Assembly (NCBI GenBank): GCA_026874595.1
Contig: CM049309.1
Span: 27,283,033-27,347,032 of the forward strand
DNA length: 64,000 bases
Direction: 5' to 3'
From: Sipunculus nudus
Taxonomy: Eukaryota > Annelida > Sipuncula > Golfingiida > Sipunculidae
Part shown: one piece after another, positions 2,205 through 62,126 of the stretch
Layout of the letters: the number at the start of each line of letters is the position of its first letter
Position numbering within the stretch: position 1 is the stretch's first letter
Position numbers and translations under genes: made by a program
The notes under the pieces: generated by a model
The model's input: the letters and a program-made list of their open reading frames with translations, nothing else
Database searches by the model: none
Told to the model about the DNA's origin: nothing

Positions 2205-3400
2205 GCAAAAGCTGACAAAAGCCCTCAGGCAAAAGAGCAGTATTCATGGGTGGTAACAGTAACAAGTATTCATGTAATATGTGCTCTTAAGGAGATCATC
2301 AAGGCAAATGACAATTCCACATTCCAAACAATCCATCCAGTGGTTCCTAAGAAATAAGGGCATAAGTTTTTTTCTATTATAAGCTCTGTGACATTGAAAA
2401 GTAGGTCAAGGTCATCAATCTTCAAACCTGACCAAGATTTTGTTGATATGTATCAGCACCGTAGAAATGAAATTCCTGTGTTGAATACTTTTGGAGATAT
2501 CCCGCTAACAAGGCCAAAATTGGAAAATCCGATAAAAACTCTTTAAAAATCAGAAATTGGAGGTGGCGCCCAAAACTGGCACAGCTAGCATTTCCAGACC
2601 ATCAGTGCCAATAACCATAACATGTTTTATGCGAATCCACCCAGTGGTTCCTGAGAAATAAGGTTCTAAGTTTTTTCTATAATTCACTCTAAAATGTTGA
2701 AAAATAAGTCAAGGTCACCCATCTTCGAACTTGACCAAGATTTTGTTAATATACATAAGCACCGAAGAAATAAAATTCCTACTGTAAATCCTTTTCCAGA
2801 TGTCCTGCTCACAAGGTAAATGTTAACACCTGCTGGTTTTTTTTCTATAATTCCCTCTAAAATGTCGAAAAATAAGTCAAGGTCACCCATCTTCGAACTT
2901 GACCAAGATTTTGTTAATATACATAAGCACCAAAGAAATAAAATTCCTACTGTAAATCCTTTTCCAGATGTCCTGCTCACAAGGTAAATGTTAACACCTG
3001 CTGGTTTTTTTTCTATAATTCCCTCTAAAATGTCGAAAAATAAGTCAAGGTCACCCATCTTCGAACTTGACCGAGATTTTATTCATATACATCATCACCT
3101 AAGAAATAAAATTCCTACGATAAATCCTATTCAAGGTATCCAGCTTACAAGGTAAATGTTAACACATGCTGGTTTTTTTTCTGTAATTCGCTCTGAAATG
3201 TAAAAAAATAAGTCAAGGTCACCCATCTTCAAACTTGACCGAGATTTTGTCAATATACATTGGCATCAAAGAAATAAAATTCCCATGGTAAATCCTATTC
3301 GAGATGTCCCGCTCACAAGGTAAATGTTAACACATGTCGGATGGACGGACGGCTTGGGTGACGACAATAGCCCTTCAGCTTCTAAGGCTGAGGGCTATAC
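2205..3400 (+). mobile_element. Satellite element, family E (168-bp units, terminal hairpin)
   Basis: A body of 168-bp repeats ends in a GGACGGACGG stretch (about 3342-3352) and a hairpin at 3367-3398, where ATAGCCCTTCAGC pairs with GCTGAGGGCTAT around TTCTAAG. The 5' side has AGCCCTCAG at 2220-2228, the reverse complement of CTGAGGGCT in the 3' arm. This matches families A-D elsewhere in the window. The 5' limit is approximate. No protein is encoded. It lies on the opposite strand to EXOSC3, downstream of exon 2. Confidence 0.5.
2640..3340 (+). repeat. 168-bp tandem repeat carrying TCAAGGTCA
   Basis: GTCAAGGTCA recurs at 2709, 2876, 3044 and 3212, a period of 167-168 bp, with shared flanks (TCTATAATTC before, AACTTGACC after). 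A more diverged copy lies at about 2345-2500. The minus-strand open frame across 2684-3058 is only a by-product of the repeat. Confidence 0.85.
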
Positions 3401-3599
3401 AGGAACATGAGTTAAATTTAAGTAATGCCAGTGCATCTATTTCTCAAACTGTAACGTCACTTCTGGCTGGCAATGGCTGCTCCCCATTGGTTCAGTCCGA
3501 GCTGGTAATTCATGTGTTTAATAATTCAGTATACTACTTTATGGTGTTATTTTTACTGAATATGTGCATCTTTTGTTTATGAGTAATACATAAAGTTCA

Positions 3600-3828
3600 A
3601 TTAATGTTGTTATTATGACCAATATATTGGTTACCTATAATTGACCAAGTTTTCAGTTTGGTTTGAGATCTTGGAGACATCTAATAGTATGCTGAATTTC
3701 AGATTCGTAGGTCCAACAGTTTCAAAATCTTCCAGTTTAATGAACAGATGGAGGAACAGACAGCCAATGGACAAAGCATTATCACTGTAACTCAGTTGAC
3801 TTATTGTCAGCTGAGCTAAAAATTAAGA
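3600..3828 (+). mobile_element. 3' end fragment of a family D satellite element
   Basis: The stretch ends with CTCAGTTGACTTAT followed by TGTCAGCTGAGC (3805-3816) and CTAAAAA. This is the same hairpin end found at 18200-18226 and 19516-19550. A GGAGGAACAGACAG stretch precedes it. Only the 3' portion is present. Confidence 0.5.
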
Positions 3829-4343
3829 AATTTTTATCTAATTTCTGGCATACAATTAAATCTTAATTAAATATAATTATATGCTTGAAAAAGGCTCCCT
3901 GGCTTAAACAGTCATCATGTTAATTGAGTATATTATCTTTCCTGATTTTCGACAATGTACATTGTTGGGGCCTATAACTTCAACAAATTATTATTCAAGC
4001 ATATTATTGAAGTATTTTTTTCCATGTACATAGGAAATATATGGAGGAATTTTTATGTCAAATATAACAAAACAACACTAGTGGCTTTCATGGTAGGCAG
4101 TCTTGAAGTGTAACAAAGTTTGATGTAAACACAGGGTTTTGTGCCTTTTTCAATTTCCAAAAGTAGGACCTTTTTAAGACTTTGTAAGACTTTTATTTGT
4201 GAAAAATATGACCATTTTCTCAAGGTTTTTATACAGTGAAAAGACCATTAGAAACCTTATATATATAGGTCTTAATTATATTCATTTTTATACTCATCCA
4301 ATTTACAGATGGCAGATAAATAAATAAAGAGGCCTTCATTTAT

Positions 4344-5213
4344 ATGCCCGTATATTCTCTACTCTTAGCCAGCTGTTGCCGTATACTTATACAGATATGT
4401 TGTTATGAACATGAACCTCTTACCATAAATGGCAAAACCGTGGAAAATGTGACAGAATACAAATATCTGGGTACAATAATATACGACAAATTTAATTTTG
4501 AAGATAATGTGCAAAAAAATTTATAAAAAGGCAAAAATGAGACTGTTTTTCCTGAGAAAACTGTACTGGATGAATGTTGATACAAATATAATGGAACTTT
4601 TTTATGTCTGTCATTCAGTCAGTGCTAACATTCTGCATTACAAGCTGGTTCGGAAATTGCAATACAGCATCCAAAAACAAACTGGGACGAATTGTTCATG
4701 CAGGGATAAAGTTGGGTTTCAAGAATGTAAAGCTGCTGAATGAACTCTACTGCTGCTGTGTCACACGAAAGGCACAGTGTATCAGGGCTGATTCTACACA
4801 TGAACTGTCTTTTTTTTATGATACTCTGATGTCGGGAAAAAGACTAAGGGCTGAACATTGCCACACAGCAAGATACAGGAAAAGTTTCATACCCACTAGT
4901 ATTAGATTGTTAAATGGTACAGAAAGCACTGTGATGTAAGTGATATAGGTAATGTATATAATTTTAAGTAGTATAGATCAGCTCACTCTTGCGTATGTAT
5001 AATACCTGTGAAGTGCTATAATGCCTGTGATATAACTTATATTATGCCAGTGATGTGCTATAATTGTCTGTGATGTGCTATAATGTCTGTACTTGATTCA
5101 AGTACAATACCTGTAGGTGTCTATATATGTGCTGTAAATGCTTGCGAACTGAATTTTATGCCTTGTATGATGAAGAAAGGCCATCTTATCTCTTATCTTA
5201 TGGTCAGCTGAGT
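4344..5213 (+). pseudogene. 5'-truncated, frameshifted LINE (reverse transcriptase C-terminus and 3' tail)
   Basis: Three consecutive frames carry one conserved C-terminal region of a CR1/Rex-type non-LTR retrotransposon. EYKYLGTIIYDKFNF is at about 4456-4500, KAKMRLFFLRKLYW at about 4530-4570, then SVLTFCITSWFGNC and later RYRKSFIPTSIRLLN ending near 4915. Two frameshifts (about 4510 and 4600) and the lack of catalytic motifs make it dead. After the stop near 4939 comes a 3' tail with imperfect GTGATGTGCTATAAT repeats, ending in a CTTATCTCTTATCTTATGG microsatellite near 5213, as is usual for such LINEs. Confidence 0.7.
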
Positions 5214-5219
5214 TAAAAA

Positions 5220-5505
5220 TGTAATAATACTGGCTCCAGGATGATCTGCACTTGGCCCACTGGAAACCTGTTTCAATTTTGCTTGAGGACTATCTGTGGC
5301 TATGAAAAAATGGTCTTAATCATAATAGGTCAATGAGGCGGGAAAAAAGTGGAAGTGTAATAAGACCTATTATCTAATAAGGGTACTTTTGCGGTGAACT
5401 CCCACAAATAATGAAGAAGACTAATACTTTATTGAAATAAATGTAATTTTATAAAGAGCAAGGGGTCTGTGCCGTGTAGTGAAGACTCTTTTGACATGCT
5501 AATTC
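5220..5505. other. Non-coding stretch, nothing recognised
   Basis: Single-copy-looking AT-rich DNA between the LINE tail and EXOSC3 exon 2. No exon of EXOSC3 was found here. Confidence 0.5.
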
Positions 5506-5553
5506 TTAGTGGTGCCACCTCATGGTAACTTGATGAAAAACACCACCTTTTAC

Positions 5554-5703
5554 CTTGACATCTGGTCTGTTTCTTTTAGTTGCTCCCTCAAAAGATAGGT
5601 AGGATAAGGATGCCTGCTGGCTTCCACCAATGTCCACACGAAATATGTCTCCTGCTTTCGCTGTTATGATACCAATCACCAAATCACTTCTCACTGGAAC
5701 ATA
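5554..5703 (-). CDS. EXOSC3: EXOSC3/RRP40 exosome subunit, exon 2 (S1 domain)
   Basis: This 150-nt exon encodes 50 residues starting [19 protein letters not shown] and ending [12 protein letters not shown]. That is the diagnostic start of the S1 RNA-binding domain of RRP40, a cap subunit of the nuclear and cytoplasmic RNA exosome. The RYVP, GDxFxVDIGG, [16 protein letters not shown] motifs are familiar from animal orthologues. On the minus strand it is bounded by a CTCTTGCAG acceptor and a GTAAAAG donor, both phase 0, so it joins in frame to exon 1 at 28828-29019. The remaining S1 and the KH domain must be encoded further left, outside the window or missed. No frameshift or stop is present, so I take it as functional. 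Confidence 0.9.
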
Positions 5704-6199
5704 CTGCAAGAGAATTAAAGCAATGTTCAGTACTAGATTGACCATTCACCCACAGATGACCAACATATAAATATAAAAGTATAAACACAGCTCATGATTA
5801 ACATTATTGAATATATTGTTTATATATATATATATATACATATATGAGGGCCCACTCGAAAATTTGAAACTGGTTTCGGTTCCCGGAAAACCAGTTCTGT
5901 GTTGTTTTGCCTTGTATTTATATGTGGACAGTTTTGGTTTAAATAACAAATTATGATAATGACGTAGGTATGATTGATGGACCATGCACAACTATTATCT
6001 AAACATTAAAGCGGCATGACCTAGAGTCCAGGGACAGAGCCATTGCCCTTAATGAGCCTTGCCAGTATTAATTATGTGTAAACGGTCATCATGGCCCAAT
6101 CATGACTGACGGGCAGTGCAGAACTGTTATCTAAACATTCAAGCGACATGACTTCAAGTTAAGCGATAGAAATACTAGCTTGGGACCAACAAAACACCT

Positions 6200-6350
6200 C
6201 GACACATCAGGTTTTTTGACACATCCAAATTCAACACAAAAAGGAGTTAAATTAGTAAGGTTTTTACTGTGTTTTGCAGGGACTTCACATTCAACTTTGA
6301 CACATTCAGGAATTCGACTTAACAGAGTTCGACACAACAAGGTTTCACTG
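6200..6350 (-). mobile_element. Tigger/pogo-like terminal fragment
   Basis: Read on the minus strand from 6350 it begins CAGTGAAACCTTGTTGTGTC after a TA, and continues with spaced GTCGAA motifs typical of Tigger-like subterminal repeats. The matching left end was not found, so it is a fragment or a solo end. Confidence 0.45.
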
Positions 6351-6492
6351 TATATGTATTTATATATACTATTGTGCTCAGCAGCAGGAAGAGGATTAAG
6401 TAAGTATATACAATATACTACTGGATTTATTAAATTCACAAAATAAGTAATTTCCATAAAATAACTGACACCTAGATCTTAATATATATAGT

Positions 6493-9197
6493 CAGGGTTG
6501 GCAATTTCTTCCAAGAGGGGGTTCCTTCCAAGGAACTTCTGGAAACTTCCGGCTCAGAAGAAATAGTTATCTCCATTTCTTCCGGAAGAAATTTTCAAAT
6601 TTCATGCGAGAATATATAAAACTAATAAATTTTCAGCTTTATTTCTGCTTAACATAATCTGCTTCATCTTGCAAATATAAAGGTTTATATTAATATATAG
6701 TGTCATCTTAGAATGTATGACTATTAGTTTGATTTGGTTAGACAATATGCCTCATGTAGCTTTGAGTTAGTCAGTTCAGGTGACATAATTCAAAATCAAT
6801 CTACACAGGTTTCTGTCCAATGAACCAATGATGCAATAATTACCAGGTGATTACCAACAAAAGTGCAGCTTACCCCTGACTGCACCGAGAGGCAGGGTAC
6901 GGGGAAGGCATGTCATAATGAACTGTGTTTCATCCACTATAATTACTAATCAAACAGTCAAACTGCTCCTTGTTATAACAGATTATTACCAAGAAGATAC
7001 ACATTTACAGAGATAGGTTTCTTTTTCATGTATTGTTTCTCTATTCTCCCGCAGGCATGCAATTTCTTTGGCACAAATATATAAAATAAGAGGGTTTATG
7101 TCCTATGCAGTATACTGTGTACCTACTGTTCCGATAACACATACAACAACAGATACAAAATGTTTTGTGGAGGACACCCAAAAGACTACTGATAGGTACT
7201 GACTGTGTGATTAATAACAGGACTTACATGGAGAGATGCATAAATTTAAATGAGTGATCATTATATGTTCATCTGGTGATCACTGATCAGTCATAGTGTA
7301 ATATCACACAAGATATTAAGTCATACATAAGCAAGCTATTACTTGTGTTATTGTTACGAAACCTAATATAAACAGATCACGTATGCGCGATGAACACAAA
7401 TTTTGTAATGGAGATAAAAAAAATCAGATTCTGTAAAACTAGGCAGCGTGAAATGTCTAGGGGAATGAATAAAGAAGTCAGTGGTTTTTTTGTTATCAAA
7501 TAACTATAATTTATTCTTAAAACAACCCTAACATTACAATACACTAAATCAATACAATTATACAGTAAAACAGCGGTATAACAACAAAGCAAATCAATCA
7601 CACAGAAAAATAATGTGCACAGTACCTGGATACCAACACCGTCACAACGATAACTTCTTTAAATATATACTCTCAGAGAATGACAGTCCAGTGTAAAGCT
7701 CTTGTAAAGATCCAGAGAGTAAACTCCAAATGCATGAAATCCAGGAGAAAGTCTTTGAAAATCTATAAGTGCTGCATTAGTCGGATAAGGCCCTAGAATC
7801 TGACACACACTTCTGCGTCCACTGGAATCTTCTCTGCTCTCTGCCCTCCCGTTCTAAAGCACAGCCCCTTTAAATACATTCACACCTCAAGCCGAGAATT
7901 TTCCACTTCTCGAACAGTCTATAAGATCTTGTACAACACGCGCTGTGTGTACCTCTACATACCAGGGCCATCACGTGACCTCGGCCAGGCATGAAAACCC
8001 AAGACTAAACATGACAACGAGAGTTCAACCAGTACGGATTAAACATAGAAAGTAATACGCGGCCAGACACAAATGCAACAACAGGAGTTTCGCCTGTGTC
8101 ACATAATAAAAAGAGCACTTGTAACATTTTATTTTGTAGGAATTGCAGTTTGCATACTATTTAGTTTCTACCCTAGTTAGTGAGTTAGTATGCAGCACTG
8201 CATAAACCTTGGCAGCTATGCACTTCACTGTTAAGATACAAGATGAGAAAATTGTAGTTTATCAATCTGTTATTCTCTATCATACAAAAGTAACATTGCT
8301 GAGTGACACAAATTAGGTAAAAACTAATTAAATATACAGAAACTTTCCTCTAACCCTCATGTGAATACAGGTAGACATTTAAACAAGACTCTTTTATAAT
8401 TAACATGTCAACACATACTGTGCAACACTACATACTTTAAAGGGACCAAATCACATATAAAGCTTGTTGAATTAACATGAAAAATAGTTTCTTCTCTTTA
8501 AAATAAATCTGTACCTGCCAAAATATTGCCTTGAAACCATTTGCTTACTCTTGTAAACAAGTGTTAAAAACAGTGGACCAGGCACGATTACAAGTGTCAA
8601 CATAAACATAACGCGACACAACACTTGTCAATCAGGAGATGCCCTGACTGATTTAGCCAAAAGAATATGAAATACAATGTTCCCACTGGCTGAAACACCA
8701 CCTGTTGTGGATCAAACATACACACAAGGACTGTGTTTACCAACATGCAGAGCCATAACAAGGTGTTAAACAGCTGTAGCTGGGATGTTTTTGCTGGGAA
8801 AGTTTTGTATAAAGCAAAACTGAACTGAATGATAGTGTGAAAAAATAGGCATAATATTGCTCCTGATTATGTCCCTTTAAATAGTTGAAATACACATCCA
8901 TCAGCTGCAATTTTGGCATACTATTAGAATAAACCTAACAGAATTATATTTATTTTAAAACAGAGCATTATTCCTGTACACTGATTTAAAGTCATATTGT
9001 TTTATTTATATTCTTAAGAAATAAAAATAGTTCAAATATCTGTTTTGATATTTGTGTATTACACAATCACTCTTACTGTCCACTAAATTCCACTTTCATC
9101 CATTACTTCCAGAAGAAAGTGGAGGAAACCCCATTTCCTTCAATTTCTTCTAGTGTCTTGGAAGAAATACATTTCTTCCAGAAGAAAACCAACCCTG
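6493..9197. mobile_element. Non-autonomous hAT-like element, 8-bp target duplication
   Basis: The ends are CAGGGTTGG (6493) and its inverse CCAACCCTG (ending 9197). They are flanked by a perfect 8-bp direct repeat TATATAGT at 6485-6492 and 9198-9205, the target-site length of hAT elements. Both ends carry clustered subterminal motifs such as TTTCTTCCGGAAGAAA and CTTCCAGAAGAAAG, probable transposase-binding repeats. No transposase reading frame is present. A 752-bp LTR is nested inside (7352-8103), so the element itself is about 1.95 kb. Confidence 0.75.
7352..8103 (-). mobile_element. Solo LTR, Ty3/gypsy-like, inside the hAT-like element
   Basis: On the minus strand it starts TGTGACACAGGCGAAACTCC and ends TTTCGTAACA (TG...CA). 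It contains a TATTTAAAGGGGC promoter-like box (about 7868-7880) and an AATAAA signal (about 7510-7516) in the right order. No internal region, primer site or purine tract adjoins it. A clear target duplication was not found (GTTAT versus TAATA), so the exact ends may be off by a few bases. Confidence 0.6.
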
Positions 9198-9205
9198 TAT
9201 ATAGT

Positions 9206-10500: not shown

Positions 10501-10793
10501 TATATAGCCATGTGACCTAAATATTAAGGCAGGCCTTAATTCCACTTCATGGGAGTGGAAATAAGGAGTGCTAATTTCCACTCCCCCTAGGAGAGTGGTA
10601 ATAAGGGATGCTTATTTCCACTCCCCCTCATGGTAAAGGCCTGTGCTGTGTATAATGAAGTATTCTGGGAAAAAAGTCACCAAATTATTTTCATTTTATT
10701 TCAGTTATAAATAAGCAAGTCTTTATTCCAGTAATTCTTGTTCAAAGATATTCAGTGATTGTGCATTATACTCTATAATACTGAGACATTAGG

Positions 10794-10794
<1 letters not shown>

Positions 10795-10884: not shown

Positions 10885-10889
10885 AACAA

Positions 10890-12052
10890 GCGACAAGCGA
10901 CTACATGTATCCACCAAAATCAGAGTAGGACGGATGAAGTGAGGCATGGATTGAGTGGCAAGGGGAAATAGAGGTACATGTGTTACATATTAGAATGGAA
11001 GTCTGCCGCGTAAACATGATTGTAGGTGGCGCCACCTGTTATTTGAACGAGAAACTATCCAAGATGTATACACATGCAAAATTTCAGGTGGAAAAGTCAA
11101 ACCACTGCAGAGAAATGAGTGATTTTATCCCACAGCAGACAAACAGATGGACGCTGTGCAAAAATGGCTGCAGGTGGTGCCATCATTTTTGTGTATGTTA
11201 TGAGGCTATCCAAGGGCTACATTTGTGTAAAAATTTTCCCTGATTGGTCAAACGAGTCCGGAGATATGAGCTTGGATGTCTGCAGCATGAACGTGAATGT
11301 AGATGGCGCCACCTGTCATAAAATCAAGAAAGCTATGTGGGATGTATACGCATGCTGAATTTCAGGTAATTTGGTCAAACCACTGCAGAGAGATGAGTGA
11401 CTTTAACCGAAGGCAGACAAACAGATTGACACTGTGCAAAAATGGCTGCAGGTGGCGCCACCATTTTTGTGTATGTTATAAAGCTATCCAAGGGCTACAT
11501 TTGTGTTAATTTTTTTTTTTATTTTTCAAACGGTTCCTGAGATATGAGCTTGGATGTCTGCAGCATGAACGTGAATGTAGATGGCGCCACCTGTCATAAA
11601 ATCAAGAAAGCTATCTAGGATGTATACACATGCCGAAATTTCAGGTGAATTAGTCAAACCACTGCAGAGATATGAGTGATTTTAAACCAAGGCAGATGAA
11701 CAGATGGACACTGTGCAAACATGGTTGTAGGTGGCAGCACCATTTTTTGTGTATGTTATAAAGCTATCCAAGGGCTACATTTGTGTAAACTTTTTTCCTG
11801 ATCGGTCAAACGGTTCCTGAGATATGTGGGTTTATGTGTGGAAACAGATGCACAAATGACGCTGGGCAGAGAGGAAAGATCAGAGATCAAGGCAAATTGG
11901 TTAGGCACCAGTTCACATGTGACCCGATAATTGGTGTAAGTTTCGGAAAGATCAGTCCAGTAGTCTCAGAGGAGTTCTTTGGAAAACAAACGCCGCGGTG
12001 GCGGAACCCGGTCAAAAACATAGTATCCGCAAAACTTTGTTTTGGCGGATAC
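10890..12052 (+). mobile_element. Satellite element, family A, copy 1
   Basis: The 5' arm TGTATCCACCAAAATCAGAG (10906-10925) is the approximate reverse complement of the 3' end. The 3' end is a hairpin at 12023-12052 (GTATCCGC-AAAAC, loop TTT, GTTTT-G-GCGGATAC). Between them are about four units of roughly 280 bp, each with GGTGGCGCCACC or a close variant (for example 11025, 11303, 11453, 11581), ending in an AAACAGATGCACAAATGACG stretch. Orientation is opposite to copy 2 (43557-45249). Open frames here are short and not conserved as protein. Confidence 0.65.
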
Positions 12053-12073
12053 AAATATATATATACATATATT

Positions 12074-12126: not shown

Positions 12127-12972
12127 TTACATGTGTGCACTTAAAAAGGTTTAAGTTTTTACATTGAAATGCATTTCAAAGTGAAATTGTTACAGTATTT
12201 AACATAATTTTAAACATATATGGTTCACTTGAGTAAAATTTGCAGTTAACTTACATTCAAATTTCTGACCAGATTTTTAAAGACAAATAAAATTTATATT
12301 TTTCTTCAAATAGTTTTGTCAATTAGTTTGTTTTATAATTGTATAGGTTTATATTATTAGGCATGGGTACAAGCTTTCAGTAGCTCAAATAGGGGGGTTA
12401 ATGTTTTGACAACACTTGTTTCCTGGCTCAATCTTTATCAGTTGATGGTTAGCACCTCAATCAGTAGGGCCAGTCACAGTAGAGTCTGTGTCTCCATTTC
12501 CCCAGACTAGTGCTGTCAGGTCTTGGCTAAATGTACAGGTAAAGTCTAGACAGTTGCACAGGACGATACACTCTGGTTTGCAACTTCATTAATTTATCCC
12601 ACCACTAGCTGATTTTATCCAAAACAATTTCAATGGCATGACTGTGGTGTCAAAATAAGTGAACTTTGTCTGAAAGAAAAAAACTACAACTACAAGGAAA
12701 CATAGGATGCATACATGTAATAGTAATAATAAGACTGTTGTCTCCAGTGTTGGACATAAAAGGTAAGACAAATAACCAACTTCTATTATATTCTATACAG
12801 CCTTCATTGCTGATGAAAGTGAATTTCTTAACTTACAATCATTTAACGGTTCTATAATATATATAGGAAGTGGAAATAAGTATTCTTTATTTAAACTTCC
12901 AGGGGGAGTGGAAATAAGCATCCCTTATTTCCACTCCCTGGGGGAGTGGAAATAAGCACTTCCAAATATTAA

Positions 12973-13998: not shown

Positions 13999-15679
13999 TA
14001 CAGTGAAACTCCAACTTGCGGACAACTCAGTAAGGTGGACAACTCATTAATGTGGACACTAAATCTCAGTCCCTTCAATTTTGCCCCTAAATTATGTTTA
14101 ACGTAAACTCAGTAAAGCGGACAACTCACTATCCCGGACATCGGACAAACTTTCCCGTCTCGCCAGCATATCCAGTACATATTATGACCCTCTGAAGCGG
14201 ACAGACATCGCGAGTTCTAATTTTTGTTCCTATATTTGCCAGGGGATGGTGCTCCGAGGTCATGACCTTGTATAACCTGTTTTGGTCAAAGTGACAGCCT
14301 GGGGACAAGCATTGACCCCAGTAAACCATTGGAAAATACAGTCAAAATTGTTGTTTATTTCTTTAAATGTGTAGATAACACAATCATTATTAAATTAAGA
14401 TTGGCAGGTCAATTAGGAAAAAAAAATAAGCTTTCAAACTGAAACAGCTTTTCATTCGACAAGGCCATCACCAAAGATTGCCGTTCATGCTTTGTGATCA
14501 GCATCAGGCCTGGGAGCCATAATTAGTTTGTGACAGTTCGCACTTAGTATGGTGAATGTGTGGTGAAGACTATCCTTTAACAAGTAATCATGCTGTACGG
14601 ATTGCTGTCAATAATCAATCTTCAAAATGCATAATGCAACCATCCATTAACTGCCGCTTGCTTAAAAGATGAAGCATGGTATAGGCCTACGTCAAATTGA
14701 AACTGCCGAGATGAGTGTGCAGGGATCAAAATATTACATTCCCGAATTCCCATGAAGCTAACTTTGCTGTCGGGAATGCTAGGTTTTAACTCGGAATTCC
14801 CGAGCGGGAATGTAGAATTTTTTTTAGTTGACAATGAAAAACATATGTAGAATTGTTATTACTTAGTCGCGTGAAATGGCCATTTTTAACTTAGCAGTGA
14901 GCTCAAAAAGCCAAAATCATTTAATATTAATTCGTGATGGTGCACTTGTACCCACATTCATTGTCAAATAAGCGCACCTTTCCATGGCAAACAGTACCGG
15001 CAGTTCGCTTGGTTGCACGCAATGACCCTTATACAGTTGTCACCTGCTCCGCGAATGTATTCAAAATGCCACAAGGTTGACCTTTATTTAAATTCCGCCG
15101 TACGACTCTATTTGATCAGGGGAAAATCCTTCCAGTATATGCCAGGAATGGAAGCTGTTTTTTTCCCCATTCCGTGGACAAAGTACAATTTTAGTGTAAT
15201 CATCAGGATATTTTACGCTAGAGTATGCTATTACGATTAGAAGTAACTTAGTACGGGTCTCCCCAAAGTCAAACAGTCTCACGGCAGACCAATCGAGCCA
15301 ATCAAAGGTCGCCATTTCCTTTATTTGCATATTTCTACTCTGGACGTGTCACGTGCTTTAATTTGAATAGGAATTCCCCTCACACTATGGGTCTGTCTAA
15401 ATCGCTTGGAATCCGTGGAGAGATGGAGAATTCGTGGAGAATTTTTTTATGCAATGATACTTTTAAATACACATTAAAATCACTTAAAATCACCAACTAT
15501 ATCACCCTAAACATATTTGTTCACTGTCAAATGATTATAAAAAAAAATTAAAAATTTGTACATTCACGTAAAATTCAGCTCTCAGTTGTTAGGGCAAGCA
15601 GGTTCTCCTCTTAAGATGTTATTTGTGGCACTCCAGAGACAATTAACGAATAGCATCAGGAGACTGTGAAATAAACAAG

Positions 15680-18600
15680 TGACCCATGGGTCATGACGCT
15701 CAGCTGACTGGGAAGAGATTTGCAAAAGGAAATTTTATCATCTGAATGGTAGTATATACCCATTCAACTGAAGCATCAAACAGATTAAAGAATAAGCCAA
15801 GATTGTATCTGAATTTATATATCTCAAAATAAAGGAAAAAATGCTTAAACTTTAAAAAAAATACAGGTGGTTCCACCAGTCTGCAGAAACTAATAAAAAC
15901 ACTTAATGGTCAACATCCATGCAAAGAATCATAGTGATTTCTGCATTAATTGTTCAGATACTTCAGCTTTTGAATCAAATTTTCCATTATTCTGAGGGAT
16001 ACTTCAGAGTCCTATTGCGGGAAGGATATGGGTAACAGAGACCTAATTTCAGATTTCCAAAGACACTCTCACGGGCCTCCTTGCATGACAAGAATGAAGA
16101 TTCTAGGTCCAGTTGTTACAATTTGTGCCATGTTAACAGATGACAGCATCCTTAAAGGTGTCAAAAATAGAGAAAAAAATTCAAAAAAATTTAATAAAAT
16201 ATAGGTTGCACCATAAGTCTGAAGAAACTGATGAAACACTCCATAATCAATATGCATGTAAAGAATCATGGTGACCTCTGCATTAGTTGGTCAGATACTT
16301 CAGCTTTTGTATCAAATTGTCCATTATTCTGAGGGATACTTCGGAGTCCTATAGCTTGAAGGATATGGGAAACAGAGAACTAATTTAAGGTTTCCACAGA
16401 CACTTTTCATGGGCCTCCTTGCATGACAAGAATGAAGATTCTAGGTCCAGTTGTTACAATTTGTACCCTGTTGACACATAACCACATCCTTAAAGGTCTT
16501 AAAAATAGAGAAAAAAAATTGTAAAAATGTGTAACAAGCCCCATAGCTTGAAGAATATAGGTAACAGAAACCTAATTCCAGGTTTCTAGGGAGTCTGCAG
16601 AAACTGATGAAACATCTCATGATCTCTTTGTATAAAATTTTTGACTATTCTGGGGGGTACTTTGGGGCCCTACAGCATGAAGGATATGGGTAACAGAGAC
16701 CTAATTTCAGGTTTCCATGGAGACTTTTCATGGGTGTCCCAGTGTGTCAAGAATGAAGATTCTAGGTCCAGTTGTTATGATTTGTGCCCTGTTAACAGAT
16801 GTTCATATCTCTAAAGGTCTCAAAAATAGTGAAAAAAATTTGTAAAGAATCGAAAAATACAGGTGGCGCCACCAGTCTGCAGAAACCTATGAAACACTCC
16901 ATGATCAATATCCATGCAAAGAACCATGGTAATCAATGCATTAGTTGTTCAGATATTTCAGTTTTTGTATCAAATTTTCATTATTCAGCGGGGGTACTTC
17001 AGAGCCCCATAGCTTGAAGAATCTGGGTAACAGAGACCTAATTCCAGGTTTCCAAGGAGACTTTTCATGGGCCTCCCCCAATGTCAAAAATGAAGATTCT
17101 AGGTCCAGTTGTTATGATTTGTGCCCTGTTAACAGATGACTGCATCTTTTAAGGTCTCAAAAATAGAGTAAAAAATCGTAAAAAATCGAAAAAATACAGA
17201 TGGCGTCCGCAGTCTGCAGAAACTGATGAAACATCTCATGATTAATATGTATGCCAAAAATCATGACCATCAGTGATGTAGTTAATGAGATATTGAAGTT
17301 TTTGTATGAAATTTTTCACTATTCTGGGGGGTACTTTGGGGCCTCATAGCTCGAAGGATATGGGTAACAGAGACCTAATTTTTGGTTTTCATGGAGACTT
17401 TTCATAGGTCTCTCAGAATATCAAGAATAAAGCTTCCAGATCCAGTCTTAACGATTTGTGCCCTGTTAACAGATGTCCACATTTTTAAAGGTCTCAAAAA
17501 TAGAGAAAAAAATTCGTAAAAAATCGAAAAATATAGGTTGCGCCACCAGTCTGCAGAAACTGATGAAACATCGCATGATTAATATGTATGCCAAAAATCA
17601 TGACCATCAGTGATGTAGTTAATGAGATATTGAAGTTTTTGTATGAAATTTTTCACTATTCTTGGGAGTACTTTGGGGCCCCATAGCTTGAAGGATATGG
17701 GTAATAGAGACCTAATTTCTAGTTTCCATGGAGACTTTTCATAGGTCTCTCAGAATGTCAGGAATGAAGATTCTAGGTCCAGTCTTTACGATTTGTGCCC
17801 TGTTAACAGATGTCCACATTTTTAAAGGTCTCAGAAATAGAGAAAAAAATTCGTAAAAAATCGAAAAATACAGGTGGCGCCACCAGTCTGCAGGAACTAA
17901 TGGAACATCTCATGATCAATATGTATGCCAAAAATCATGACCATCAGTGTTGTAGTTAATGAGATATTGAAGATTTGTATGAATTTTTTTACTATTCTGG
18001 GGGGTACTTTGGGGCCCCATAGCTTGAAGGATATGGGTAACAGAGACCTGATTTCTGGTTTCCAAGGAGATTTTTCATGGACCTCTCAGAATGTCAAGTT
18101 ACAAGATTCTAGGTCCAGCGGTTACGATTTGTGCCAGGTTAACGGACAGACGGACGGCACGACGGACGGACGACGGACAAAGAGTGATCGCTATAGTTCA
18201 GATGACTTACAGTCAGCTGAGCTAAAAACTGTTGAAACACTCCATGATCAATATCCATGCAAACAATTATGGTGATCTCTGCATTAGTTGTTCAGATACT
18301 TCAGCTTATGTATCAAATGTTCCATTATTCCGAGCTGTACTTTGGAGTGCCATAGCTCTAAGGATATGGGTAACAGAGACCTAATTTCAGGTGTCCATGG
18401 AGACTTTTCATGGATCTCCCTGTGTGTCAAGAAAAAAGATTCTAGGTCAAGTCATTACAATTTGTACCTTGTTGACAGACAACTACATCCTTAAAAGTCT
18501 CATAAATAGAGAAAAAAAAATTGTAAAAATTTGAAAAAATACAGGTGGCGCCACCAGTCTGCAGGAAATGATGGAACACCTCTTGATCAATATGTATGCC

Positions 18601-19551
18601 AAAAATCATGACCATCTGTATTGTAGTTATTGAGATGTTGCAGTTTTTTTAAATCAAATTTTCCATTATTCTGGGGGGTAATTGGGAGCCCCACAGCTCA
18701 AATGATATGGGTAACGGAGACCTTATTTCAGGTTTCCATGGAGACTTTTCATAGGTCTCTCACTGTGTCAAGAATGAAGATTCTAGGTCCAGTCTTAACG
18801 ATTTGTGCCCTGTTAACAGATGTCCACATTTTTTAAGACCTCAAAAACAGAGAAAACAATTCGTAAAGAATCGAAAAATACAGGTGGCGCCACCAGTCTG
18901 CAGAAACTGATGAAACATCTCATGATCAATATGTATGCCAAAAATCATGACCATCAGTGATGTAGTTAATGAGATATTGAAGTTTTTGTATGAAATTTTT
19001 CACTATTCTGGGGGGGTACTTTGGGGCCCCATAGCTCAAAGGATTTGGGTAACAGAGACCCAATTTCTGGTTTCCATGGAGACTTTTCATAGGTCTCTCA
19101 CTGTGTCAAGAATGAAGATTCTAGGTCCAGTCTTTACGATTTGTGCCCTGTTAACAGTTGTTCACATTTTTAAAGGTCTCAAAAATAGAGAAAAAAATCT
19201 AAAAATACAGGTGGCGCCACCAATCTGCAGGAACTGATGAAACATCTCATGATAAATATGTATGCCAAAAATCATGACCATCAGTGATGTAGTTAATGAG
19301 ATATTAAAGTTTTTGTATGAAAATTTTGACTATTCTGGGGGGTACTTTGGGGCCCAATAGCTCGAAGGATATGGGTAACAGAGACCTAATTTCTGGTTTC
19401 CAAGGAGATTTTTCATTGACCTCTCAGAATGTAAAGTTACAAGATTCTAAGTCCAGCGGTTACGATTTGTGCCAGGTTAACGGACAGACGGACGACGGAC
19501 AAAGAGTGATCGCTATAGCTCAGCATGACTGAAAGTCAGCTTAGCTAAAAA
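15680..19551 (+). mobile_element. Satellite element, family D, with two successive 3' ends
   Basis: The 5' end has a perfect palindrome TGACCCATGGGTCA (15680-15693), then the arm GCTCAGCTGACT (15698-15709). The exact reverse complement AGTCAGCTGAGC occurs at 18211-18222, after a GACGGACGGACGACGGAC stretch, as the 3' arm of a terminal hairpin. A second 3' end at 19516-19547 has the hairpin TAGCTCAGCATGACT-GAA-AGTCAGCTTAGCTA. The array therefore continues past one complete element into a second, 5'-truncated one. No coding capacity. Confidence 0.65.
15850..19500 (+). repeat. 337-bp tandem repeat with GGTGGCGCCACC
   Basis: Landmark AGTCTGCAG recurs at 17211, 17548, 17885, 18556 and 18895, and in diverged form near 15880, 16215, 16590, 16875 and 19222. 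Spacing is mostly 337 bp. Most units carry AGGTGGCGCCACCAGTCTGC. About ten units. Open frames of 66-116 codons in this stretch are repeat by-products. Confidence 0.85.
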
Positions 19552-43057: not shown

Positions 43058-43556
43058 TCAATACATTGAAACAGATTAAGGGCTCAAATACTTAAAAATG
43101 ATATATAAATTAAATGTCAGCACAGTTATATTTATGCATTTGATATTTTGCAATTGCACTGACAGAGGTTTACATGAAACTTACGTTAATCGAAAAATCT
43201 AATTACATGTACGTGATTTAAAATATCCTATATATTAGTGTTTGCAGACAAATCAAGTTTCTAATTTTATTCCAGATATTGACAGACGATCTTCTTGCAC
43301 CCATCACCTCTTCAAAGCAATTACATTTGTCAGCATGCAAATATAGGGAAATTAAATATGAAGAAATATGAAATATTGCAATCAAAACGGTTCTCCAATT
43401 CAAGCATCAAAATGCGTGACAAAACAGACATTCCTACCCAAGAAATGACACTTCAATCTGAGAACAGTCACAAAATTTGCAAACTGCCGTGCAGAACTAA
43501 AAATATAATGTTTGCTGTTCGATGTGCCTGTAAACAAAGGCAAATTAAGCATTATT

Positions 43557-45249
43557 GTATCCGCCAAAACAGAGTTTTGCGGATACTATGTTTTCAGCTG
43601 CACGCCGCCGCCGCCGCCGCCGCCGCCGCGTAGGTTTCCGGAGAACTCCTCCGTAACCGCTGGGCGGAATTTTCCGAAACCCGGGATTATGTTCGGGTCA
43701 CATGTGAACTGCTGCGCCCCGATTTTGTTTTGACCTCTGACCTTTCCTCTGCGTCCGTTTGTGCGTCTGTTTCCACACATAAACCCACATATCTCGGGAA
43801 CCGTTTGACCGATCAGGAAAATTTTTTTGCACAAATGTAGCCCTCGGAGAGCTTTATAACATACACCAAAAATGGTGGCGCCACCTGCAACCATGTTTGC
43901 ACAGTGTCCATCTGTTCGTCTGCCTTGGGTTAAAATCACTCATATCTCTGCAGTGACTTGACTAATTCACCTGAAATTCGGCATGCGTAAACATCCTGGA
44001 TAGCTTTTCTGATTTTATGACAGGTGGCGCCACCTACATTCACGTTTACGCTGCAGACATCCAAGCTCATATCTCGGGAACCGTTTGACCGATCAGGAAA
44101 ATTCTTTTGCACAAATGTAGCCCTTGGAGAGCTTTATAACATACACCAAAAATGGTGGCGCTACCTGCAACCATGTTTGCACAGTGTCCATCTGTTTGTC
44201 TGCCTTGGGTTAAAATCACTCATATCTCTGCAGTGACTTGACTAATTCACCTGAAATTTGGCATGCGTATACATCCTGGATAGCTTTTCTGATTTTATGA
44301 CAGGTGGCGCCACCTACATTCACGTTTACGCTGCAGACATCCAAGCTCATATCTCAGGAACCGTTTGACCGATCAGGAAAATTTTTTTGCACAAATGTAG
44401 CCCTTTGAGAGCTTTATAACATACACAAAAAATGGTGGCGCCACCTGCAACCATGTTTGCACAGTGTCCATCTGTTCGTCTGCCTTGGGTTAAAATCACT
44501 GATATCTCTGCAGTGGTTTGACTAATTCACCTGAAATTCGGCATGCTTATACATCCTGGATAGCTTTTCTGATTTTATGACAGGTGGCGCCACCAACAAT
44601 CAAGTTTACGCTGCAGACATCCGAGCTCATATCTAGGAAACCGTTTGACCGATTGGGCCAAAATTTTGCATGTGTATAAATCTCATATAGCTCTTTATCA
44701 TACGCAAAACTGGTGGCACCACCTGCATCCATGTTTGCATAGCTCCCGTCTGTTTGTCTGCCATGGGATAAAATCACTCATATCTCGGCAGTGGTTTGAC
44801 ATATCTGCCTAAAATTTTGCAAGTTTATACATCCCCGACAGCTCTCTTGATTTTATGACAGGTGGCGCCACCTGCATTCTAGTTTATGCAGCAGATATCC
44901 AAGCTCATATCTTGGGAACCGTTTGACCGATTGGGCCAAAGTTTTGCATGTGTATAGTTCTCACAAAGCTCTTTATCATACGCTAAACTGGTGGCGCCAC
45001 CTGCAACCCTTTTTTGCACAGCGTCCATCTGTTTGTCTGCCAAGGGCAAAAATCACTCATATACAATATAGTGGTTTGACTTATCTGCCTTAAATTTTGC
45101 AAATGTATACAACTTGGACGGCTTTCTGGATTTTTTGGTAGGTAGCGCAACCTACATACACAATTTGGCTGCAGACATCCATGCTAATATGCAACACTTC
45201 ACCCGTTCCACTCTGATTTAGGCGGATACAAGTAGTCGCTTGTCGACTA
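43557..45249 (-). mobile_element. Satellite element, family A, copy 2
   Basis: Read on the minus strand the 5' end has the hairpin TAGTCG-ACAAG-CGACTA (45249-45233), then the arm TGTATCCGCCTAAATCAGAG (from 45230). Five 280-bp units follow (ATCTCGGGAACCG or variants at 43791, 44071, 44351, 44631, 44909 on plus), each with two GGTGGCGCCACC palindromes. The 3' end has a CGG run, AAAACATA and the terminal hairpin at 43586-43557. Non-coding. Confidence 0.7.
43603..43630. repeat. (CCG)n trinucleotide run
   Basis: About eight CCG units inside the family A 3' region. (GGC)n runs occupy the same place in family B at 58782 and 61391. Confidence 0.9.
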
Positions 45250-45685
45250 CCCGTATTCTAGTTTCAATATCAACTGAACCAAAATTCATTCACAGAGTTA
45301 AATACAGAATTGAAACCCTTACAGACATAAATAATTTTTCGACCCCCAAAACATAAAAATAGCGCACTTGCAATACATTCTAGGACAAATAAAACCGGAT
45401 ATATTGATATTTCATAACCTGGGGGCCATCTTATCCGCCATCTTGGATTTTTGCTTGGCCCTATATCTGAAAGTATTGATTATGGACTGGACAACTGTTA
45501 TGCGAATTTTCATGCTTTTTTCATTTTTTGCACAATTCTTCTCTTAACAGCTGGACTATCTGTAATATTTTAATCTAGAGAATTTAATCATTCAAGTTTA
45601 CGTTTAAGCCGTTGGTGTTTACATGTGCAATATTAATACTGTTGAACATATTTACACTATTTACAGGGTGTTTTGATTGTTCCTG
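45250..45685. other. Non-coding, nothing recognised
   Basis: AT-rich sequence between family A copy 2 and the LINE ORF1 remnant. Confidence 0.4.
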
Positions 45686-55720: not shown

Positions 55721-55747
55721 TAAGTCAGTTACTTCACTAGTAACGTG

Positions 55748-57709: not shown

Positions 57710-57742
57710 TGTGGTGGTGGTGTTTGGGGGGGGGGGGGGTGG
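57710..57742 (+). repeat. G-run tract, quadruplex-capable
   Basis: GGTGGTGGTGTTT followed by a run of about 13 guanines and TGG. Confidence 0.7.
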
Positions 57743-58499
57743 CGTAGAGTGTCACAGTTTACCGATTATGGGGCTATTTACAAGGTTATTTACGCCTACA
57801 AGGTGTGGACATGCCAATTCTGCACACAATCATACATACATAAAATTAAATTATATAAAGTGAGTGTATTAATATAAGTGTAATATATTCAGTTATATAA
57901 ACACACAATGACAATTTGTCTGTTGTGTGTCCATTTTGGTTTTATAAATAAGAAGTCTATAGTCCAATTATATTAATAATGCATGTGTGTTTGTCTCTGT
58001 GTGTGCATGTGTGTGATTTATTTATTACTCAATTTTATTTACAACAGTTTTTGTATAGGTTTTAATATTTTATTTCCAATGACAATAGACGAATAAACCC
58101 CGCTTTTAATTATTTTTATCAGTGGATTTAATTGCAAAATATCATTCTGCAATGGAAATAATCTAATACTTATAAAAGGAATTCGGTTCATGTTTGTTCG
58201 CGATGTTCTCTATAACCGCGTTGTGTACAATAATGTGCCATACATCATTTTTAAGGTTAAAGGTCTCCGCAGTGACATAGGCGAAAGTAGAATAAATGAT
58301 TTTTAATGTACATATAATTTTTGAGTGATTTTTCCGTTTTTACTGACTTGCACGGAGGTTAGACCGAGCATAGCCGAACTGCCTTCGGCAATGACCGGAA
58401 TGCGTGCATCGTTGACACTTAACCTCAAACACTATTAAGGACTATTGTTTATATAAATAACGCTTGTCAGTAAAAGAGAAATCACATGTGTCTCACTTT

Positions 58500-58835
58500 A
58501 TGAATGGAGAGTTCAACCCAGGAATCAATCAGTTTCCGGCAAATCACATGGCTCTCCAATATCTTCGGTCACCTTGATATTTGGACAAATCAATACAAGA
58601 TTTCTTGAGATATTAAAGAATTTGTGTTATTTTCAGCAAAAATGGACCCATTCAAGGTCGAGGTCATTCTCCTAGCAAAAGCCATGACCCAATTTTAATA
58701 GGCTTCGTCCTCTTACACATGTAAAGTTTGATAAAGATCAGTGAAAAATTTGTTGAGTTATCCTGCTCACAAGATTTTTCTGCGGCGGCGGCGGCTATCA
58801 TGAAACCATAGTATCCCGACTTTGTCTAGGGATAC
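58500..58835 (+). mobile_element. Satellite element, family B, 5'-truncated copy
   Basis: Parallels the last 340 bp of the next copy (CATTCAAGGTCGAGGTCATT, GGCTTCGTCCTCTTAC, a (GGC)n run, ACCATAGTATCC) and ends in the hairpin GTATCCC-GAC-TTT-GTC-TA-GGGATAC at 58811-58835. Confidence 0.6.
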
Positions 58836-58862
58836 ATTTGCAATAGAAACTAGACATTTCTT

Positions 58863-61461
58863 GGCACCGCAGGTGCCAGAGTATCCCCAGACATAGTAGC
58901 CCCCCCCCCCCCTCTTTAAGAATAGACCCCCATTTTTAGCAGCATATACTGACACTTGTTTCTTCCATCTAACAATCCACAATCTTGTTGAAGATGTTGG
59001 TCCTGTGACCTTGATCTTTTTAAAAATGTGTCATGTGACCTTGACCTTTGACCTCATGACCCCAAAATCAATTTGGGTCTTGCTTTTCCAATGGGACATA
59101 TGCAAGTCAAGATTGAAATCTATACATCAATAAAGCAGGAATTATCATCCAGAAACTAATTTTTTTTTTGGACAGATGGCTCCTGTGACCTTCACCTTTG
59201 ACCTTGTGACCTCAAAATTGATAGTGTTCTTCCTCTCTTGGCAGGTGAACAATATGTGCAAGATGAAAGATCTGAGATGAAATGTTTGGCTGAAAATGCA
59301 TCCACAATCTTTTTAAAGATGTGTCCTGTAACCTTGACCTTTGACCTCATGACCCCAAAATCAATTTGGGTCTTGCTTTTCCAATGGTACATATACAATT
59401 CAAGTTTGAAATCCATACATCAATAAAAGCAGGAATTATCATCCAGAAACTAATTTTTGGACAGATGGCTCCTGTGACCTTCAACTTTGACCTTGTGACC
59501 TCAAAATTGATAGGGGTCTTCCACTCTTGGCAGGTGAACTATATGTGCAAGATGAATGATCTGAGATGAATTGTTTGGCTGAAAATGCACCCACAATCTT
59601 TTTAAAGAGGTTTCCTGTGACCTTGACCTTTGACCTCATGACCCCAAAAACAATTCGGGTCTTGCCTTTCCAATGGGTCAAATACAAGTCAACTTTGAAA
59701 TCCATACAATAAAAGAATACAATAAAAGCAGGAATTATCATCCAGAAACTAATTTTTGGACAGATGGCTCCTGTGACCTTCATCTTTGACCTTGTGACCT
59801 CAAAATTGATAGTGTTCTTCCTCTCTTGGCAGGTGAACAATATGTGCAAGATAAACGATCTGAGATGAAATGTTTGGCTGAAAATGCATCCACGTCTTTT
59901 TAAAGATGTGTCCTGTGACCTTGACCTTTGACCTCATGACCCCAAAATCAATTTGGGCCTTGATTTTCCAATGGGTCAACTACAAGTCAAGTTTGAAATC
60001 CATACATCAATAAAAGAAGGAATAATCATCCAGAAACTAATTTTTGGACAGATGGCTCCTGTGACCTTCACCTTTGACCTTATGACCTCAAAATTGATAG
60101 GGGTCTTCCACTCTTGGCAGGTGAACTATATGTGCAAGATGAAAGATCTGAGATGAATTGTTTGACTGAAAATGCATCCACAATCTTTTTAAAGAGGTTT
60201 CCTGTGACCTTGACCTTTTACCTCATGACCCAGAAATCAATTCGGGTCTTGCTTTTCCAATGGGTCAAATACAAGTCAAGTTTGAAACCCATACATCAAT
60301 AAAAGCAGGAATTATCATCCAGAATCTAATTTTTGGACAGATGGCTCCTGTGACCTTCACCTTTGACCTTGTGACCTCAAAACTGATAGGGGTCTTCCTC
60401 TCTTGGCAGGTGAACTATATGTGCAAGATGAAAGATCTGAGATGAAATGTTTGGCTGAAAATGCATCCACAATCTTTTTAAAGATGTGTCCTGTGACCTT
60501 GACCTTTGACCTCATTACCCAAAATCAGTTGGAGTCTTGCTTTTTCAATGGGACATATATAAGTCAAATTTGAAATCAATACATCAATAAAAGCAGGAAT
60601 TATCATCCAGAAACTAATTTTTGGACAGATAGCTCCTGTGGCCTTGATCTTTGACCTTGTGACCCCAAAATTTATATGGATCATCCACTATTGGCAAGTG
60701 AGCTATATATTAAAGATGGAAGACCTGGGATGAAAGTTTGGCTTAAAATGCATCCACAGTATCTTTTAAAATGCCAGTCCAGTGACCTTGACCTTTGACC
60801 TCATGACCCTAGAACCTATAGGGTTCTTACTTTAGTGGTGGGCCATACATAAGTCATGTTTGAAATCCATATGGCTATCAACACTGGAGATATCATAGGA
60901 GGTGTGTGATTTTCACCATATATGGCAATATTCAAGGTCAAGGCCACTATCATAGGAAAGGTCATGACCCCAATTTAAATAAACATCATCCCATAACCCA
61001 TATCTATGTATATGCATAATATAAAAGAAATCTGTCCATTAGTTTTTGACTTATAATGCTCACAGTACTGTAAGGTGGCAATTTTGGGGGTATTATACGG
61101 CACGAAACCAAGTAAAGAATAATAGGTGGCGCCACCAGTTTCTGGAACATGACAACCCTATCCATGATCTTCCATCAACTTGATTTTGGGATACATCCAT
61201 GCAAGATTTCTTGAGATATTAAAGAATTTGTGTGATTTTCCCCAAAATTGAACCTATTCAAGGTCAAGGACACTCTCCTAGTAAAGGTCATGACCTCATT
61301 TTAAATAGGCGTCGTCCTCTTACCCATATCTATACATATACCAAGTTTGGTAAAGTTCCGTGAAATATTTTTTGGGTTATCGCGCCAACAAGATTTATAT
61401 GCGGCGGCGGCGGCGGGACCGGTATGAAAACATAGTATCCCCCGACTTTGTCTGGGGATAC
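58863..61461 (+). mobile_element. Satellite element, family B, complete copy
   Basis: The 5' end has a hairpin GGCACC-GCA-GGTGCC (58863-58877), then the arm AGTATCCCCAGACA (58880-58893). The 3' end has a (GGC)n run, AAAACATA and the hairpin GTATCCCCCGAC-TTT-GTCTGGGGATAC (61435-61461), whose last arm TGTCTGGGGATACA is the reverse complement of the 5' arm apart from the end base. The body is the 289-bp receptor-motif array plus unique sequence with GGTGGCGCCACC at 61126. Non-coding. It starts only 27 bp after the previous copy ends. Confidence 0.7.
58990..60830 (+). repeat. 289-bp tandem repeat with dense nuclear-receptor half-sites
   Basis: TGACCTTGACCTTTGACC-type blocks start at 59035, 59328, 59617, 59915, 60204, 60493 and 60782. 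TGACCTTCACCTTTGACC-type blocks start at 59185, 59474, 59773, 60061, 60350 and 60639. On the minus strand each block is four AGGTCA-like half-sites spaced 2, 1 and 0 nt. Short open frames in the array are by-products. Confidence 0.9.
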
Positions 61462-61725
61462 AATAAGCATATATTGCATTTGCTAAACTTTAACATAATT
61501 CAGCTATGTTTTTGTGTAGACATGCAAGTGTTCTGCAATATTTATTTCAAGTATACAGCTTTAACTGTATTATATTCAGTCTTATTAATGATACATTAAA
61601 GCCATGAGAGTAGATAGTTTTATCCATGATTCAAATGTTCTGGATTTGTTATCCTTATATTTTTAATTACATTAATGTTCTAAATAAAATCCTGTAAAAA
61701 AAACAAAAAAAAAAAAAAAACAAGA

Positions 61726-62126
61726 GCACCGCAGATGTGCATAATACGCCCATCGTGTAACTGGTGACCTCTGACGTCATCAAATATACGTGGATTTTGA
61801 TGAGAATGTAATTCAGATGAGAAACTGTATTGGTAAATATGTATAATGAGTTTTATGTAAACGCATAGAATTTTTGTTAAGTCACCACGGTACCTCCAAA
61901 GTGCGGTGACCTCTGATCTCATTAAATATTTCATTGATAAAGATATTCTTCCTAAGTGTGGATTTTGCCTATAATCGAAGTCGGGCGAGATAATCTATTG
62001 GTTAGTAGTTATGGAGAGTTTAGTGAAAATCCATCGAAGCCGCGCTAAGTTAACACGGCGACACTAAAAGTTAACGGACGGACGGTGGGTATACCATAAC
62101 ACTCCGTCATAATTCGGGCGTATAAT
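61726..62126 (+). mobile_element. Satellite-type element, family C (short, no tandem body)
   Basis: The 5' end has GCACCGCAGATGTGC (61726-61740), close to the family B hairpin, followed by the arm ATAATACGCCC (61741-61751). The 3' end, after GGACGGACGG, is TACCATAACACTCCGTCATA and then GGGCGTATAAT (62116-62126), the reverse complement of the 5' arm with one mismatch. About 400 bp, non-coding, preceded by a poly(A) stretch. Confidence 0.6.

Follow-up and report, generated by a model that had tools for sequence, protein, structure and literature searches.

The window analysed here, a 64,000-nucleotide stretch of the Sipunculus nudus genome (assembly GCA_026874595.1, contig CM049309.1; C4:27283033-27347032), contains members of five element families, A to E, which we interpret with a probability of about 90% as non-autonomous Helitron2/Helentron-type rolling-circle transposons (HINE-like) with satellite-like cores. 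This kind of element is already known, and the plan of the families is the published Helitron2/Helentron plan of HINE, DINE-1 and oyster Cg_HINE in reverse. Membership of the Helentron type is well supported for B and D by their ends, targets and empty sites, supported for A and E by their ends, and weaker for C. The first-pass annotation of the window had offered this membership provisionally; it now has backing, most of all for B and D. Overall, the observation in that annotation was partly confirmed and its interpretation partly supported.

The hairpin on the GGAC side corresponds to the published 5' end and the hairpin on the arm side to the published 3' palindrome, because Helitron2, Cg_HINE and DINE-1 are laid out in this way; the elements had been annotated 3' to 5' relative to that layout. 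The authors of the DINE-1 study considered 5' and 3' to be arbitrary in the absence of a gene (PMC2374699). The features of the window are as follows, with the strand given as the published 5' to 3' direction and the satellite bodies taken from Tandem Repeats Finder (TRF).

2194..3397, minus strand: family E element (sequence, copy ends, TRF body), with CTAG 3' end 2194-2197, 3' palindrome 2202-2215, 3' arm AGCCCTCAG 2220-2228, satellite body about 2671-3333, GGAC stretch at 3343 and 5' hairpin 3367-3397.
10886..12054, minus strand: family A copy 1, A1 (sequence, TRF body), with intact 5' hairpin 12023-12054.
15675..19546, minus strand: family D composite element (sequence, 20 fetched copies sharing the head), with 3' end (ACAAG-palindrome) from 15675, 3' arm 15698-15709, inner 5' hairpin 18195-18223 and outer 5' hairpin 19517-19546.
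43555..45261, plus strand: family A copy 2, A2, with 5' hairpin (TTGTATCCGCC...) 43555-43586, CCG-rich stretch 43605-43628, satellite body about 43788-45190, 3' arm 45221-45231, 3' palindrome 45232-45250 and CTAG 45258-45261.
58808..58841, minus strand: B-related 5' end remnant lying close to B on its upstream side and carrying a flawed hairpin of its own (local score 93 against the end of B, best of 500 shuffles 29).
58850..61463, minus strand: family B element (sequence, 20 fetched copies, two empty sites), with CTAG 3' end 58850-58853, 3' palindrome 58863-58877, 3' arm from 58881, satellite body 59014-60809, CGG-rich stretch at 61402 and 5' hairpin 61435-61463.
61720..62126, minus strand: family C element without satellite array, with ACAAG-palindrome 61720-61740, 3' arm from 61741, GGAC stretch at 62076 and degenerate 5' hairpin 62091-62126.

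The claimed arms of B, D and E, those of A, for which no letters had been quoted, the terminal hairpins and the tandem-repeat bodies were all read in the sequence, the bodies having TRF units of 168 bp in E, 278/280 bp in A, 337 bp in D and 289 bp in B. The arms of C had also been quoted as reverse complements, but they are inexact (ATAATACGCCC versus GGGCGTATAAT) and the hairpin is degenerate in the window copy. Palindrome-side ends had been drawn short by 12 bases in A2, 13 in B, 11 in E, 6 in C and 5 in D. Element D keeps its arms but not its single hairpin, since its locus has two. The idea of one shared plan holds, with the families falling into two classes, CTAG (A, B, E and F, a sixth family described below) and CTTGT (D and probably C). 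The bodies had been described as unlike between families, which does not apply to A2 and B, whose hairpin-side ends are homologous (local score 64 versus a best of 27 in 500 shuffles).

Genome searches covered the 1.43 Gb assembly, the listings for A to E holding the 40 best-scoring candidates each. Among the matches listed, 37 of the 39 non-self matches of E begin at window position 2193, the A preceding CTAG, and 22 of the 39 stop exactly at 3397, while the end of A2 shows identity over 125-126 bases in all 40 genome matches listed, its own copy among them. In A1 the published 3' end is damaged, lacking CTAG and one palindrome arm. Copies were examined with their flanks for D and B (20 each), at eight loci for C and four for E (the window's included), and for A at the listed places. 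All 20 fetched copies of D, and all 20 of B, have common ends and differing flanks. The ends of C were compared at its eight loci, with a readable tail in five of the seven besides the window's own; some of its genome relatives carry additional internal repeats. The 35-base 3' end of D has 15,075 genome matches at three or fewer mismatches (reversed control, 0), and 5' hairpins of the D type with the exact outer arm number 27,160 genome-wide (control, 0). The D matches listed, query excluded, are 97-98% identical; although the A and D lists are top-scoring samples, their high identity shows that young copies exist.

Two types of terminus were found in the window sequences and the copies: A, B and E terminate in palindrome-spacer-CTAG and D in palindrome-CTTGT. 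The 3' palindrome lies directly past the 3' arm in A2, B, C, D and E, weakly in C, and is damaged in A1. Short asymmetric inverted arms, with the 5' arm within a hairpin, were observed for A, B, D and E in the window and in the 20 copies each of B and D, and approximately for C. None of A, B, D and E has the canonical 5' TC end of Helitron1: A and B begin with TTG, E with TAG, and D with a run of T followed by AGCTC. Of the CTRR end that follows the 3' hairpin in Helitron1, the form CTAG is present in A2, B and E and absent in C and D, and the A/T target that accompanies it was observed for B. A proto-Helentron-like TT...CTAG combined with insertion between A and T (A/T target) was found for B by ends and target, and for A and F by ends; E starts with TAG.

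In the direction of the first-pass annotation, the palindrome of B is preceded by CTAGACATTTC, with an A before CTAG in 19 of 20 copies, and D starts with ACAAG-palindrome-arm, with an A before the element in all 20 fetched copies. That annotation had proposed defining exact ends from empty sites. Spanning hits were found for five of 20 D and seven of 20 B copies; five pairs were inspected, of which three were clean, one was partial and one gave nothing, and the remaining spanning hits were weak or tandem-repeat matches. Two of the pairs (L043 versus L038; L052 versus L017) show B inserted precisely between A and T, with no duplication, so that no TT insertion was found for B at these sites. 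One paralogous empty site (L027 versus L058) places D within a run of A in the same reading direction, which corresponds to T/T in the published direction.

Since Pearl and DINE-1 were formerly classed as miniature inverted-repeat transposable elements (MITEs; PMC7492417, PMC2374699), the families could be thought of as cut-and-paste MITEs with terminal inverted repeats. We regard this as very improbable: the arms are asymmetric and the Rep-helicase element described below has the same kind of end. For B and D cut-and-paste is contradicted by the empty sites, which lack any duplication in B and allow one base at most in D.

Another possibility is that arm matches arise by chance in a repeat-rich window. 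A loose arms-plus-hairpin detector gave 15 hits in the window, modestly above the 0-10 in 20 simulated windows; many of its hits lie in other repeats, and among the five families it recovered A2 and B alone. Arms alone, within this one window, are not decisive. The question is settled by the genome copies, because the ends of the 20 D and 20 B copies agree and the D end is found 15,075 times against none; exact ends and arms are common to the copies. In all collected DNA, a stricter head-plus-hairpin detector returned 18 rows, 17 of them B, versus 0, 0 and 0 in three controls, missing D because its hairpin is flawed. A two-edit detector returned 42 rows (41 of them A, B or D) versus 1, 0 and 2. 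Its one row from another repeat is also the sole row with a perfect partner, and the scan favours intact outer arms because an exact 10-base far-arm match was required. Contradicted by the copies and by these controls, chance was rejected as an explanation and retains almost no probability.

The D locus deserves separate description. A second 5' hairpin was found beyond the first here and in seven of eight inspected copies (L018, L019, L022, L025, L030, L032 and L033); in six of the seven the same satellite sequence comes after the inner hairpin, and a composite D element with two 5' ends has therefore spread. The D 5' hairpin pattern (27,160) is commoner than the 3' end pattern (15,075), counts obtained with patterns of differing strictness, and the D 5' end may combine with other 3' ends or persist on its own. 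In L028, the flank just past the D hairpin end reads AAAACAAGGCCTACAGGCC, resembling the ACAAG-palindrome head of another family, which D seems to adjoin directly. Elsewhere in the window, a 27-bp repeat of about 79 copies (2-2145), crossed by several long open frames, stops just ahead of E, and A1 is flanked on either side by repeats of about 40 bp that contain inverted GAGTGGAAATAAG motifs (10553-10628 and 12869-12958).

A candidate source of the transposition machinery was found elsewhere in the genome. The Helitron_like_N model (PF14214) has 143 genome matches, with open frames of up to 2426 amino acids. One of these, element G1 (C8:80139053), has an open frame of 2250 amino acids with DUF6570 and OTU upstream of the Rep match and PIF1 and Exo_endo_phos (E = 1e-11) downstream of it, and Helraiser is among its solved-structure matches. 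Past the gene lie a 324-bp satellite-like array, which recurs at many other places, and a CAGA-rich stretch, and the element ends in two successive terminal hairpins with arm GCTTGCCGG, of the same kind as the hairpins of A to E. Because the array and the terminal hairpins lie beyond the gene, the gene runs against the published direction; a reversed gene is also reported for some Helitron2 and Helentrons (PMC3627910, PMC4067079). A second Rep-helicase element, G2 (C13:9109249), yielded no ends.

A related copy on C14 continues from the body into a head of the form CTAG-palindrome-GCTTGCCGGAA; over 11 bases, the arm of this head agrees with the terminal arm on C8. Family F was defined from this head, and many near-identical heads occur in the genome. 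The 2201 bases upstream of G1 still match other copies and its own 3' end was not reached, so the link between the G1 protein and CTAG runs via the arm and repeats of a neighbouring copy. Along this route, the combination of a 5' arm hairpin, CTAG ends and an A/T target is likely linked to an endonuclease-bearing Rep-helicase; the Rep-helicase of proto-Helentrons has no endonuclease domain, but G1, which is linked to F by shared arm and repeats, does have one. The match lists of the F head and of A are top-scoring and biased to copies with matching flanks, and they are not informative on targets. Heads of F recur at spacings of about 3.96 kb and 13.48 kb (C9:1191613-1199707; C11:50429121-50456256), which suggests tandem arrays of whole or partial F elements.

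A flaw in the terminal hairpin is common to all six families, and in each the outer arm is an exact or nearly exact match for the far arm. In A, B, D and E the 5' hairpin consists of 7-8 outer pairs, one mismatch or one-base bulge and 3-5 inner pairs, closed by a loop of three bases in A, B and D and of seven in E. One of the F hairpins has this form; in the other, the flaw site is occupied by a G-T pair. In all 20 D and all 20 B copies the hairpin partner deviates from the outer arm, and the far arm equals the outer arm exactly in 18/20 of each. A shape scan of the collected DNA, in which perfect stems were allowed, found 41 hairpins in 31 partly overlapping loci, mostly D and B, and every one of the 41 is flawed. 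Among the first 100 D hairpins listed of the 27,160, which all lie within the initial 3 Mb of C1, the site opposite the G of the arm is A in 94, G in two, T in two and CA in two, and never the pairing C. Because the copies within a family go back to a common founder, only the six families count as independent observations. Between lineages, arm position 7 is G in A and C in B at all three sites (outer arm, hairpin partner and far arm).

The flaw fits a conformational switch, a strand mark or the drift of an unconstrained partner. The first-pass annotation had suggested that the 3' arm could pair either with its partner in the hairpin or with the 5' end of the element; this idea holds and was already in print, Bao and Jurka having proposed an arm-pairing switch for Helitron2 in 2013 and reported compensatory changes in a Culex pair (PMC3627910). 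We consider such a pairing switch the likeliest function of the arms. In all nine comparisons, pairing between the two arms is predicted to be more stable than the hairpin (-12.4 to -18.4 versus -3.6 to -11.6 kcal/mol), and the case for co-evolution rests on lineages rather than on copies, because changes within families are one-sided and the A/B change at position 7 is coordinated.

Several observations weigh against the switch or against the Helentron assignment itself. The energy comparison excludes the cost of closing a kilobase loop, pairs some arms across copies (E, F) and includes several variants of one family among its nine rows. Paired substitutions, for which the first-pass annotation had proposed testing the 5' and 3' arms, were absent within families among the 20 D copies, the 20 B copies and the C copies with a readable tail: arm changes in B and D are one-sided, and the arms vary independently, an outcome which that annotation had named as contradicting its idea and which is the pattern expected of copies decaying after insertion. 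The C hairpin differs from the others in having its mismatch after five pairs and a large loop. The Fusarium 5' hairpins, as quoted in PMC5148889, look fully paired, which means that the flaw does not occur everywhere. At the D empty site, a one-base duplication is indistinguishable from a terminal A, because one A is unaccounted for. The first-pass annotation had also proposed a search for an autonomous element that shares the terminal motifs; Rep-helicases were found in the genome search, none of them with the exact arms of A to E, and the arms of G1 are those of F.

The same elements could use the flaw differently, as a strand mark by which the HUH domain of Rep would cut only one strand, the far arm being a second binding site and not part of a switch. 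The HUH enzymes of IS608, ISDra2 and Escherichia coli repetitive extragenic palindromes (REPs) contact an unpaired or mismatched base, and repair of the REP mismatch impaired activity (PMC8266576). In A, B, D, E and one of the F hairpins the flaw comes after 7-8 bp; its type varies, being a mismatch, a bulge on either side or a G-T pair, and C differs. The bacterial parallel is one of analogy, and another REP group uses perfect palindromes (PMC8266576). We regard the strand mark as somewhat improbable. Simple decay, in which an unconstrained hairpin partner has drifted and both outer arms are kept as Rep binding sites, also appears somewhat improbable. In its favour, the altered part is the inner partner and not the outer arm in 6/6 families, the DINE-1 partner is described as partial or interrupted (PMC2374699), and the copies of each family go back to one founder state, so that the 27,160 D hairpins are not independent. 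On the other hand, the partner tracks the arm between lineages at all three sites of A/B position 7, and the position of the flaw and the three-base loop recur in A, B, D and F.

From these observations a more general rule for Helentron-type 5' ends can be put forward, tentatively and with the expectation that it will probably not hold in full: about eight perfect pairs, a flaw, 3-5 further pairs and often a three-base loop, with a far arm exact for the outer strand, unlike the hairpin partner, the flaw being kept though the arms have wholly changed, which would make the end a programmed switch or a strand mark for rolling-circle transposition; to this belongs an endonuclease-bearing Helentron with Helitron-like CTAG ends. 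A hairpin flaw stated as a rule was not found in the accessible text of the literature searched. Relative to that literature, the recurring flaw, the combination of 5' arm hairpin, CTAG and A/T target, and the likely link to an endonuclease-bearing Rep-helicase are possibly new.

Returning to the pairing switch as the preferred role of the arms, transposition might proceed as follows. In the published direction, the short first arm folds with the next bases into the 5' hairpin, followed by a GTCC-, CAGA- or CCG-rich stretch, the satellite body, a second arm complementary to the first, the palindrome and the 3' terminus. A Rep-helicase acting in trans would nick the 5' end and peel off one strand, and the 3' arm and palindrome would be read as a stop signal. 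The 5' hairpin, metastable because it is flawed, could be displaced by the better-matching far arm once the second end arrives, as in the switch of Bao and Jurka, and the strand would be joined into A/T (CTAG class) or T/T (CTTGT class). The arms, the ends, the B and D targets at three empty sites, the high copy number and a Rep-helicase-endonuclease frame with a like hairpin are directly observed starting points for this scheme; from them we infer the enzyme that moves each family and every catalytic step.

The pairing switch of Helitron2 had rested on few examples, and six families with tens of thousands of D-type ends make it testable. Arm hairpins combined with CTAG and an A/T target, and the linked endonuclease-bearing Rep-helicase, bear on the divergence of Helitrons and Helentrons: if an endonuclease-bearing Helentron does use CTAG ends, protein type would not dictate terminus and target. 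The case also shows rolling-circle elements spreading satellite DNA. The motif AGGTGGCGC occurs 22 times in the window, always within E, A1, D, A2 or B, which make up 17% of it, and 0-1 times in each of 10 simulated windows; CTAGGGGGCGCTG and CTAGGTGGCGCTG are present at the end of G1 (L066, minus strand, at offsets 722 and 1053). The motif resembles the CTCF consensus, and the satellites may therefore spread CTCF-like sites. Among 12 listed papers out of 129, the 11 concerned with repeats or genomes made no mention of CTCF, and the one that did deals with methylation.

Among known systems, Helitron2 has the same plan of asymmetric inverted arms: its 5' arm pairs with the bases that follow to form a 5' hairpin, its 3' arm immediately precedes a 3' hairpin, and its Rep-helicase is sometimes reversed (PMC3627910). 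The families differ from it, as far as described there, in their satellite cores, in the presence of two terminus classes in one genome and in the recurring flaw of the 5' hairpin. With HINE, DINE-1 and Helentrons they share subterminal arms, a partial partner beside the 5' arm, a GTCY microsatellite, central repeats, a 3' stem-loop and, for D, a TT target (PMC4067079, PMC2374699), whereas A, B, E and F end in CTAG and B inserts at A/T and not at TT. Oyster Cg_HINE and Pearl-type elements likewise have an arm with a complementary partner, a microsatellite of GTCC type (GTCC- or GTCY-rich in Cg_HINE and DINE-1, beside the 5' arm; PMC7492417, PMC2374699), short satellite arrays as central repeats, and a 3' arm followed by a palindrome; the arms themselves differ, and the accessible parts of PMC7492417 make no mention of CTAG ends or A/T insertion. 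Bacterial IS608, ISDra2 and REP systems offer irregular hairpins and strand-specific HUH recognition (PMC8266576), a likeness of working principle alone; they are single-strand transposases without a helicase. The ends of the CTAG class resemble those of proto-Helentron-Pi of Phytophthora, which has 5' TT, 3' CTAG and A/T insertion without duplication (PMC4067079), as seen in the ends of A, B and F and the target of B, with the exception of E, which starts with TAG. Proto-Helentron-Pi has a Helitron-like structure and no endonuclease domain, whereas the families described here combine such ends with arms and a 5' hairpin, and the protein linked to F carries an endonuclease.

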